64,000 bases of DNA. Origin: Corynebacterium faecale. GTDB lineage: Bacteria > Actinomycetota > Actinomycetes > Mycobacteriales > Mycobacteriaceae. The stretch covers positions 1,426,001 through 1,490,000 of the forward strand of contig NZ_CP047204.1 in NCBI RefSeq assembly GCF_030408735.1. Direction: 5' to 3'. The notes under the pieces were generated by a model. It searched no databases. It saw nothing but the letters and a program-made list of their open reading frames with translations, and was not told the DNA's origin. Below are positions 39,374 through 41,119 of the stretch, one piece after another. Both the position numbers and the translations under genes were made by a program. Each line of letters begins with the position of its first letter. Within the stretch, counting starts at the first letter, position 1.

Positions 39374-40945
39374 TCACCCGAGATGTATCCGGTTCCAGTG
39401 CTCGGTGTCACGCAGTAACTGCCGGTCATGGGTGACCAGGACCACCGCCGCCGGGGTGTCATGCAGGGCTTCGGTGAGCTGGTCCACCAGGTGCATGGAG
39501 AGGTGGTTGGTGGGTTCATCGAAAAGGAGCAGCTGGGGGTCTGTGGCCAGGATGGTGGCCAGGTCAACTCTGCGCCTTTGCCCCATGGACATCTCGGTAT
39601 ATTTCTTCCTGGCGGCTTCCGGTGAGAGCAGTCCAAAACGGATGGCGGCTTCCCCTGCTTTACCTACCTCACCCGATGCGGGGCTGTCTGGGGCCCGGAT
39701 GGACTCCTGGGTCAGGTAGCCGATGCGGGCATGATGTGAGACGGTCCCGGTACTGGGTGGGTATAGTCCAGCGAGAAGATCCAGCAGTGTGGTTTTGCCT
39801 GCGCCGTTGGCCCCGGTGATCACATACCGGTCGCCGGAGGTGATCTCCAGGGGATGGGGCAGGCTGAGACGGTTAACCACGGTCAAGTCAGAGCACCTGA
39901 TAAGTGTGGCTCCAGGGCGTACCTTCAGATCCGGGAAATCCAGCTCCAGCGGAGGGTGGGGCATGGGCACCGGAGCGGCATCCACCGCTGCCTGTGCCCT
40001 TTTCACTGCCTGCACCACACCCGGTGCGCGGGAGGCTCTGGTGTGTTTACCGGTTCCTTTCGGGGGCCGCCAGGCGGTATCCACGCGGCGGCGGGCCTCT
40101 TCGAGGTCGTCTGCGAGGCGTTCTCTCAGCCGTTGTTGATCGCGGTGGTCCTGCCTCCATCGCCCGAGCATGGCCTGACGGGAGTGGTGGTACTGGTCAA
40201 AGCCGTCACCGTGGATACGCGGGCTGCCATCTGGTGTCGGATCGAGATCGACGATGGTATCGGCGACATCCCGGACAAGCGCCCGGTCATGGGATACCAC
40301 GATCACCACTCCCTTGTGCCTTTTTATGGAGTCGGTGAGGAATTCCAGGGCTTCGTGATCGAGGTGGTTGGTCGGTTCGTCGAGAAGCACCACGTCATAA
40401 TCGCCGCCGAGGATGCACGCCAGGCGGACGCGGTAACGCTGGCCCACTGACATCTCCTCCAGTAAATGGCCGGGTTCGGTGAGGGCACTCAGCGCCTGCA
40501 GGGCGATCCCGATGCGGCGTTTCGCACTCCAGGCGTCAAGTGACTCGGCCACACCGAGGGCATCGGCGAAAGCGCTCTCAGCCCCCGGGGCACCGTCTGT
40601 GAGAGCCATGGTTGCCTGTTCCAGCGTGGACAAAGCTGTCAGTGATGGGCCAATGGCATCTTTGGTGAGATCGCCAATGGTCATGCCCGGTTCGGCAGGC
40701 AGATGCTGGTGTGCGATAGCGAGGTGCCCGTGCACATCGACGGTGCCAGCTGATGGTGCCAGGTCACCGGTGATGGTGGCCAGGAGGGATGATTTACCGC
40801 GGCCGTTCTCGCCGAGGATGGCGACGCAGCGGCCTGCGGTGGCAGTGAGGTCAAGGCCGGTGAAAAGTGTGGTGCCGGCGCGGGCCACGGAGAGTCCGCG
40901 GACAGTGACATGGGGGAGCCCGGAATGCGGGGTGGGGTGGGACAT
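39374..40945 (-). CDS. ABC-F family ATPase (ribosome-protection-like)
   Basis: The protein has 523 residues and two ABC domains in one chain with no membrane helices. Walker A motifs are GENGRGKSS and GANGAGKTT; Walker B motifs end in LLDEPTNHLD and LFDEPTNHLS. The signatures are shifted to MSVGQRYRV and MSMGQRRRV. A linker of about 80 residues, rich in Arg, separates them. ABC-F proteins act on the ribosome E site, and some dislodge antibiotics. The 137-base leader with a hexapeptide frame and a sequestered ribosome site argues for antibiotic-inducible expression (see separate entry). It converges on xerD with a four-base gap. Confidence 0.88.
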   Translation of the reverse strand: MSHPTPHSGLPHVTVRGLSVARAGTTLFTGLDLTATAGRCVAILGENGRGKSSLLATITGDLAPSAGTVDVHGHLAIAHQHLPAEPGMTIGDLTKDAIGPSLTALSTLEQATMALTDGAPGAESAFADALGVAESLDAWSAKRRIGIALQALSALTEPGHLLEEMSVGQRYRVRLACILGGDYDVVLLDEPTNHLDHEALEFLTDSIKRHKGVVIVVSHDRALVRDVADTIVDLDPTPDGSPRIHGDGFDQYHHSRQAMLGRWRQDHRDQQRLRERLADDLEEARRRVDTAWRPPKGTGKHTRASRAPGVVQAVKRAQAAVDAAPVPMPHPPLELDFPDLKVRPGATLIRCSDLTVVNRLSLPHPLEITSGDRYVITGANGAGKTTLLDLLAGLYPPSTGTVSHHARIGYLTQESIRAPDSPASGEVGKAGEAAIRFGLLSPEAARKKYTEMSMGQRRRVDLATILATDPQLLLFDEPTNHLSMHLVDQLTEALHDTPAAVVLVTHDRQLLRDTEHWNRIHLG

Positions 40946-41089
40946 GGTGAAACTTCCTGTGTTCTAAGGGTTGCTGAACCCGGCCCCCGCGTGGCCGCCG
41001 GACTGGAGAGTCCGTGTGCGGCCGAGGGATCGGGGCTTGGTGAGGGGGAGTTCAGCAACTCCTACAGGAAGTACAAATGCATGTGGCTG
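40946..41089 (-). promoter_or_regulatory. candidate translational attenuator of the ABC-F gene
   Basis: On the minus strand a short leader is followed by three structures. The ribosome site of the ABC-F gene (AGGAAG, complement of 40953-40958) lies in CAGGAAGT, which is exactly complementary to ACTTCCTG inside the leader peptide frame (41065-41072). Next to it GTTGCTGAAC (41050-41059) is complementary to GTTCAGCAAC (40970-40979). Between them a 12-pair hairpin stands at 40993-41023. Each half can instead fold alone (GGAGTT-GCTG-AACTCC and GGGTT-CAGC-AACCC). A ribosome stalled in the leader frame would break the long pairing and free the ribosome site. Confidence 0.7.
41062..41082 (-). CDS. 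candidate leader peptide MHLYFL
   Basis: An ATG at 41080-41082 (minus strand) opens a six-codon frame ending in TAG, directly in front of the first arm of the attenuator. A -10-like TAGATT (41090-41095) lies seven bases before it, so the message could begin at or next to the ATG and be translated without a Shine-Dalgarno sequence. Its Tyr and Phe codons coincide with the segment that pairs with the ABC-F ribosome site. Confidence 0.5.
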   Translation of the reverse strand: MHLYFL

Positions 41090-41119
41090 AATCTAACATC
41101 GGGTCGCGGTCGGCGGCAA
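41090..41119 (-). promoter_or_regulatory. promoter of the ABC-F leader
   Basis: On the minus strand TTGCCG (41114-41119) and TAGATT (41090-41095) are spaced by 18 bases. Confidence 0.5.

Follow-up and report, generated by a model that had tools for sequence, protein, structure and literature searches.

A probable drug-inducible attenuator with the hexapeptide leader MHLYFL upstream of actinobacterial ABC-F genes

Introduction

Ribosome-stalling leaders of ABC-F genes have been described mostly in Firmicutes and in a few Streptomyces, as far as the accessible text of the relevant papers goes (PMC10314930, PMC10201436, PMC12421871). In the available part of one of them, the leader MsrDL (MYLIFM) precedes streptococcal msrD; sensing of the drug requires L3 and I4 but not Y2, and release factors are blocked by F5, with which they clash (PMC10314930). 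Other leaders of this kind are those of CplR (MR[I/M]), VmlR (MIN) and LsaA (MAGN) (PMC10201436) and the ARE5 leaders TiaAL (MVGDDDISG) and Are5scL1 (MLV) (PMC12421871). According to the same partial texts, CplR of C. difficile combines masking of the SD with termination (PMC10201436), and lincosamides, pleuromutilin and streptogramin A, but not erythromycin, arrest ribosomes at the start codon of TiaAL and Are5scL1 (PMC12421871). Control of an ABC-F gene by a short uORF is common to all of these systems and to the locus described here, and MHLYFL occurs in none of the leaders given in those texts. In ErmCL/ErmC, a ribosome stalled on the leader exposes the masked SD of the resistance gene, as is proposed here, whereas the peptide is unrelated and the target is a methyltransferase, and the masking strand of the present locus would be the leader's own codons (PMC10219788, available part). 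The ilvB leader of C. glutamicum is likewise read without an SD in Corynebacterium, but it is an amino-acid attenuator of 15 residues with an unrelated sequence (PMC4046766, available part).

In this work, a stretch of 64,000 nt from Corynebacterium faecale (contig NZ_CP047204.1, positions 1,426,001 to 1,490,000; "the window") was analyzed, in which a reading frame for MHLYFL precedes an ABC-F gene. MHLYFL and MsrDL are both hexapeptide uORFs before ABC-F genes with M1, L3 and F5 in common and a hydrophobic residue 6 followed by the stop; the identity of 3/6 residues was judged by eye in peptides too short for a claim of homology. Compared to MsrDL as given in the available text, MHLYFL has His for Y2, Tyr for I4 and Leu for M6, and its mRNA is probably leaderless (PMC10314930). 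A preliminary description of this DNA had likened the layout to erm/msr-type control. The nearest described leader peptide is MYLIFM of msrD and not an erm leader; unlike for msrD, an intrinsic terminator was not found in the window's leader. A description of the MHLYFL leader was not found in the open-access literature searched, a scope that covered the articles and not their supplements. Because the minimum ORF in the C. glutamicum small-ORF study was 48 nt, according to its available text, the 21-nt leader ORF would have been missed there (PMC4046766). The kind of control considered here, by a ribosome-stalling leader, is known; what appears new is a probably leaderless hexapeptide uORF in front of ABC-F genes of actinobacteria, for which we infer the stall, the inducer, the transcription start and the resistance function.

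Results

Organization of the leader and the ABC-F gene

The features of the locus were collected in Table 1. All lie on the minus strand, where the preliminary description had placed MHLYFL* just after a promoter, and its account of the leader and the pairing proved correct in every part that was checked. The promoter-like hexamers TTGCCG and TAGATT are spaced by 18 nt, and the ATG of the ABC-F gene follows 137 nt from the leader start. A strict sigma-70 scan with an E. coli-type consensus returned 0 matches at this promoter; the -35 consensus of C. glutamicum is weak (ttgnca) according to the available text (PMC3890552).

Table 1. Coordinates of leader, pairing segments and ABC-F gene in the window
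Feature	Position	Strand	Basis and remarks
-35-like hexamer TTGCCG	41114..41119	-	read from sequence
-10 hexamer TAGATT	41090..41095	-	sequence; 7 nt 5' of leader ATG
Leader ORF MHLYFL* ATGCATTTGTACTTCCTGTAG	41062..41082	-	sequence and comparison; probably leaderless, putative transcription start 41082
Leader arm ACTTCCTGT	41064..41072	-	end of Tyr codon, Phe, Leu, first stop base; pairs with ABC-F ribosome site
Alternative local hairpin GGAGTTGCTGAACTCC	41047..41062	-	sequence; mutually exclusive with inner stem
Inner stem 5' arm GTTGCTGAAC	41050..41059	-	sequence, predicted fold
12-pair hairpin between stem arms	40993..41023	-	predicted fold
Inner stem 3' arm GTTCAGCAAC	40970..40979	-	sequence, predicted fold
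Alternative local hairpin GGGTTCAGCAACCC	40968..40981	-	sequence; ribosome site stays outside it
Ribosome-site arm ACAGGAAGT of ABC-F gene	40952..40960	-	SD core AGGAAG 40958-40953
ABC-F gene (523-aa product with two tandem ABC ATPase domains)	39374..40945	-	ORF and domain searches

The ABC-F protein matched PF00005 in two stretches, and no membrane-domain family was present among its 10 Pfam matches. The best NCBIfam match was NF000355 (ribosomal protection-like ABC-F) with 273.1 bits, below the curated cut-off of 380, followed by the TlrC/CarA/OleB/SrmB model with 269.6 against a cut-off of 800. The gene is a probable ribosome-protection gene by sequence, and its product may work like the NF000355 protein despite the score below the cut-off. 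It sits between xerD and parA, and both of these genes flank relatives in six further loci (L002, L030, L059, L065, L101, L124); xerD or parA alone adjoins other relatives, whose stretch ends earlier.

Predicted structure of the leader RNA and the effect of an occupied leader

The preliminary description had stated that the codons for Tyr-Phe-Leu are exactly complementary to the ABC-F ribosome site, that an adjoining stem and a 12-pair hairpin extend this pairing, and that two small local hairpins could form instead. All three statements were borne out. The leader arm and the ribosome-site arm are exact complements over 9 nt, the two inner arms are exact complements and make a 10-bp stem, and both alternative hairpins are present in the sequence. 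The 146-nt segment of the window folded with -65.8 kcal/mol, compared to -42.75 ± 4.03 kcal/mol in shuffled sequences (z -5.72, 0/200 shuffles as good), and a 119-nt piece beginning after the leader reached z -2.50, with 6/200 shuffles as good. In the uninduced fold the SD of the ABC-F gene is predicted to be paired, which fits translational attenuators that mask the SD.

To mimic what a ribosome with its P site on codon 6 might cover, leader nt 1-31 were kept unpaired, with nt 36-66 as the control. The mean unpaired probability of the window's SD rose from 0.00 in the free fold to a predicted 0.50, and the 5-bp stem of the 3' local hairpin appeared. The same trend was found across the relatives described below. 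Among 23 leaders with the window's RNA design or a near variant of it, the mean for the SD increased from 0.13 to 0.40 (20 up, 1 down), and among 29 leaders with a second design from 0.17 to 0.37 (24 up, 3 down); that the predicted openness with the leader held reaches only 0.40 and 0.37 on average counts against the attenuator. With the control segment held, SD opening rose in 0/23 and 0/29 leaders. The presence of mutually exclusive folds that are altered by occupancy of the leader, as expected of ABC-F attenuators, is supported at the level of prediction, with covariation behind it.

A folded leader could also act one step earlier, by terminating transcription in an intrinsic or Rho-dependent manner until a stalled ribosome lets the polymerase pass, as for msrD, vmlR and lmrC. 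Many of the studied ABC-F leaders act wholly or partly by termination according to the available texts (PMC10314930, PMC10201436, PMC12421871). The C-rich and G-poor stretch before the window's hairpin could suit Rho, which is a suggestion from base composition. However, the scan of the window for intrinsic terminators gave none between the leader and the ABC-F gene, its sole site lying upstream of the promoter, whereas MsrDL is described as acting via an intrinsic terminator (PMC10314930, available part). Moreover, the leader codons pair and covary with the very ribosome site of the gene, which termination alone would not need. Transcription attenuation was therefore considered rather unlikely, and masking of the ribosome site is the preferred reading.

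Conservation of MHLYFL upstream of ABC-F genes

The firmest measure of peptide conservation came from a search that was not steered by the peptide. The ABC-F protein was searched in 201 genomes of the genus, and the best 30 matching loci were fetched. Upstream of the gene, 9 of them had MHLYFL and one had MLLYFL; in 19 the leader was longer and had a terminal arginine, and a single locus, L005, showed neither type, so that M[HL]LYFL stood in 10 of the 11 loci outside the longer-leader type. In L005, a GTG-started frame for VNYLFFVYWG lies 7 nt after TAAAAT and is perhaps a third leader.

When the peptide was searched as degenerate DNA, 16 of the 242 genus genomes, the window's own included, had one site each, and none was given by the reversed pattern in the same 242 genomes. 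All 16 sites precede an ABC-F gene (15 by phmmer, and L045, a cut stretch, by tblastn). Against the attenuator counts that the exact pattern was missing from 226/242 genus genomes, a count in which variants such as MLLYFL of L010 do not figure. Sites were present in 4 of the 301 genomes searched in the family, including the window's own, and the other 3 sites were also before ABC-F; among 394 genomes of the class, 4 had a site, of which 2 were already found and the other 2 precede ABC-F. Because few genomes at these ranks have sites and those sites stand before ABC-F, the MHLYFL element is by its sequence distribution patchy and moves together with an accessory gene.

A species-level scan of bacteria and archaea gave at least 118 stretches, a sample and not a census, with at least 110 sites that have a true stop; nine of the 118 stretches were dropped for a site without a true stop, presumably TGG. 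The sites were divided into actinobacterial and other ones by hand from the record titles. Among the matches listed, ABC-F was found downstream of 41 of the 44 actinobacterial sites by phmmer and of one more (L151) by tblastn, and the stretches of the remaining two (L121, L159) end directly after the leader. In comparison, ABC-F was found at 0/66 sites of other phyla among the matches listed, 4 of which had less than 400 nt downstream. The genera with sites among the matches listed included Agrococcus, Leucobacter, Gordonia, Nonomuraea, Rothia, Sciscionella, Nesterenkonia, Janibacter, Nocardia, Brevibacterium, Prauserella, Amycolatopsis, Demequina, Actinomadura and Tessaracoccus. At the level of sequence, a short uORF lies directly 5' of ABC-F and is conserved with it, as is characteristic of the attenuator class.

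In total 52 distinct leaders were compared, with L121 and L159 excluded; most came from the peptide-pattern search among the matches listed, so that identity of the peptide among them is partly by construction. Their stop codons were TGA in 35, TAA in 9 and TAG in 8, differing from MsrDL, which prefers UAA (PMC10314930, available part). The Phe codon was TTC in 52/52, which one search pattern required, and the His codon was CAT in 50/52, which suggests a constraint on bases in addition to that on the amino acid. The third bases of the Leu3, Tyr4 and Leu6 codons vary.

A TANNNT box ended 6 nt (25 leaders) or 7 nt (27 leaders) before the leader start in all 52, and any other distance occurred at most once. 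The control, 66 chance sites of other phyla among the matches listed, had a box at 6-7 nt in 2. The -10 motif of C. glutamicum is TAnnnT and 33% of its mRNAs are leaderless, as given in the available text (PMC3890552). Because of this fixed spacing and these data on C. glutamicum, the A of the ATG is the probable transcription start of the leader. The leaderless reading, at first given as possible, is made probable by the comparison, and a transcription start downstream of 41060, which the preliminary description had named as contrary evidence, is argued against by the same spacing.

The arrangement might also be accidental, a hexapeptide of random origin next to a gene with an SD that fits TTCCT by coincidence; TTCCT by itself is complementary to a good SD. 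Chance of this sort is contradicted by the conservation across actinobacterial families, by the covariation of the pairing and by the fixed -10 spacing, and its probability was regarded as negligible.

Covariation of the pairing and changes of the RNA design

The start codons of the ABC-F genes were picked by script, with four set by hand. In the window's design, AGGAA is masked by the Tyr-Phe-Leu-stop codons. Under permutations that leave the relatedness among leaders in place, the 23 leaders with this design or a near variant paired with their own sites at a mean of -14.57 kcal/mol compared to -11.91 (sd 0.52) after swapping, and 0/10,000 permutations were as good. After thinning to 15 less similar leaders, the values were -15.09 and -12.17 with none of 20,000 permutations as good, and own pairing was above the row median in only 11/15. 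The signal extended to positions that are free to vary without changing the peptide. In the 17 leaders with AGGAA (16 of the 23 plus L090, including the close relatives L068/L078 and L010/L031/L044), the third base of Leu6 was Watson-Crick paired in 12, compared to 5.8 expected (0/5,000 permutations reach 12), and that of Tyr4 in 13, compared to 7.9 expected (p 0.0014). At the second and third bases of the stop codon and at the base that follows it, covariation was not significant in these 17 leaders (p 0.22, 0.17 and 0.99). The preliminary description had made its reading depend on conservation and covariation in relatives; both were seen, including at synonymous positions, in favor of the attenuator.

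The second design, partly plasmid-borne, has a shorter leader-SD pairing, with UCCU:AGGA and GACGGC:GCCGUC in many of the duplexes. Its consensus, built from 24 of the 29 leaders (L050, L069, L090, L127 and L132 were left out), contains two stems, ACGGC:GCCGU, which starts within the stop codon, and another one ahead of the SD, and 7/29 pairs of the consensus show compensatory change. The swap test was weak for this design (647/10,000 shuffles as good, 29 leaders), by which its pairing is not proven. The ABC-F start codon had a mean unpaired probability of 0.04 over the 29 leaders, and in the fold of L050 the 5' end of the leader also pairs with the ABC-F start, where GCAU around the His codon can pair with AUGC. 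In addition, the consensus of a corynebacterial clade of 7 leaders (L038-L041, L043, L045, L046) pairs UCUGUAC of the leader with GUACAGA of the ribosome site, a masking duplex in another register formed by the Leu3-Tyr4 codons of an unchanged peptide.

An ABC-F tree was built from 60 distinct proteins out of 69 read. The longer-leader type formed one clade (100/100), and the number of changes required was 6 (at least 5) for the window's design and 3 for the second one. Because the designs change several times on this tree, the sequences indicate a peptide that stays the same within an RNA that has been remodeled more than once.

These changes bear on whether the peptide has any role. It might be a by-product, an ORF without a sensing role whose bases are kept because UUCCU must mask AGGAA, and the near-invariant TTC and CAT codons do point to base constraint, TTC with the proviso given above. 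Yet Met-His-Leu is kept though most of it is not part of the covarying duplex in the window's design, the corynebacterial clade masks in another register with the same peptide, third bases vary in three codons, and the spacing between the -10 box and the start is fixed, which together make a by-product very unlikely. Another explanation is a general uORF, in which any slowing of ribosomes, by amino-acid shortage or by any elongation inhibitor, would open the gene and the peptide itself would not be sensed. The leaders of CplR, VmlR and one ARE5 gene are only 3 residues long, and for CplR-type and ARE5 leaders an arrest close to the start codon is assumed or has been demonstrated, according to the available texts (PMC10201436, PMC12421871); Tyr, Phe and Leu codons could moreover report the supply of aminoacyl-tRNA. 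This explanation was judged unlikely, since the peptide is kept (9 MHLYFL and 1 MLLYFL in the 11 protein-found loci) while synonymous bases and RNA design change, and the leader has no run of one amino acid. Sensing through the peptide thus remained the preferred reading.

Other leader types and RNA elements

The sister ABC-F clade (L011-L029, L171-L173, L176) has a different leader of 11-18 residues that ends in R*, for example MYSGIASMKLRSAR, MTDMGFSIARIWGHR and MSFCMKPWFCR, with CGGCGG following the stop codon. These longer leaders look leaderless too, 22/23 starting 7 nt after a TANNNT box. They carry K-L-R or R/K-x-W, which resemble the +x+ macrolide arrest motif.

No Rfam family matched the window's leader up to E 1. 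At gathering scores, the loci of three relatives gave only the ALIL pseudoknot (RF01497), a frameshift element of insertion sequences, which lies away from the leader at L050:686-817 of Leucobacter chironomi, about 3 kb upstream.

Discussion

Taking sequence, folding and analogy together, we consider it highly probable that the ABC-F gene, a probable ribosome-protection gene, is controlled by a drug-inducible attenuator acting via the MHLYFL leader. Transcription would begin at the A of the leader ATG, and the six codons would be read from a leaderless mRNA. Without a drug, ribosomes would leave MHLYFL* fast, and the Tyr-Phe-Leu-stop codons would fold onto the ABC-F ribosome site; the predicted inner stem and hairpin would close this masking fold, whose pairing is supported by covariation, and keep ABC-F off. 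A ribosome stalled by a drug on the leaderless uORF is predicted to cover the leader arm, so that the 3' local hairpin GGGTTCAGCAACCC could form and the ribosome site would be freed. The ABC-F protein would then rescue ribosomes, which should switch the signal off again.

By analogy, macrolides are the likeliest inducers because of the likeness to MsrDL and because the leaders of the sister clade resemble the +x+ motif, and we hold this with moderate confidence. Within this group, macrolides carrying cladinose would be the most likely ones, considering the likeness to MYLIFM, the ABC-F relatives and the linked MFS pumps. A joint reading that we find reasonably plausible is that MHLYFL is one actinobacteria-wide, drug-dependent arrest peptide, convergent with MsrDL and read from leaderless mRNAs, which has been wired to at least 3 RNA switches: Tyr-Phe-Leu codons on the SD, Leu-Tyr codons on GUACAGAAAG, and UCCU together with bases that follow the stop codon on both SD and start codon. 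The sister ABC-F clade would instead have a KLRSAR/RIWGHR-type peptide, which is longer and likewise leaderless.

A six-residue peptide that recurs across actinobacterial families beside accessory or plasmid-borne ABC-F and MFS pairs offers a compact test of tunnel-drug sensing. It raises the questions of whether initiation on a leaderless mRNA alters the response to drugs and of what keeps the peptide constant through the successive changes in RNA design. In addition, MHLYFL could serve as a sequence tag for inducible ABC-F genes, which are mostly annotated merely as ATP-binding proteins.

The leader DNA is identical or nearly so in at least seven loci (L004, L050, L057, L060, L079, L127, L143) from Leucobacter, Rothia, Agrococcus, a Propionibacterium bin and a genome of the window's genus, and their ABC-F proteins are nearly identical where compared. 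Such near-identity of leader DNA and ABC-F across genera suggests recent transfer. A tblastn search of plasmids with a Leucobacter relative returned 20 records, of which 7 were fetched; 3 of these carried the MHLYFL leader (two with a GTG start) and 4 the longer type. On 4 of the 7 fetched plasmids (loci L170, L172, L174, L175) ABC-F is followed by an annotated MFS pump gene, and the same order was seen in loci such as L050, L054, L088 and L093. The best matches of the two pumps that were scanned were Tet(V) and an H+ antiporter family, both below the cut-off. As msrD adjoins mef (PMC10314930, available part), the ABC-F genes described here can adjoin an MFS pump gene, and the ABC-F and MFS pairs in plasmids and genomes of several actinobacterial genera parallel the mef/msr pairs.
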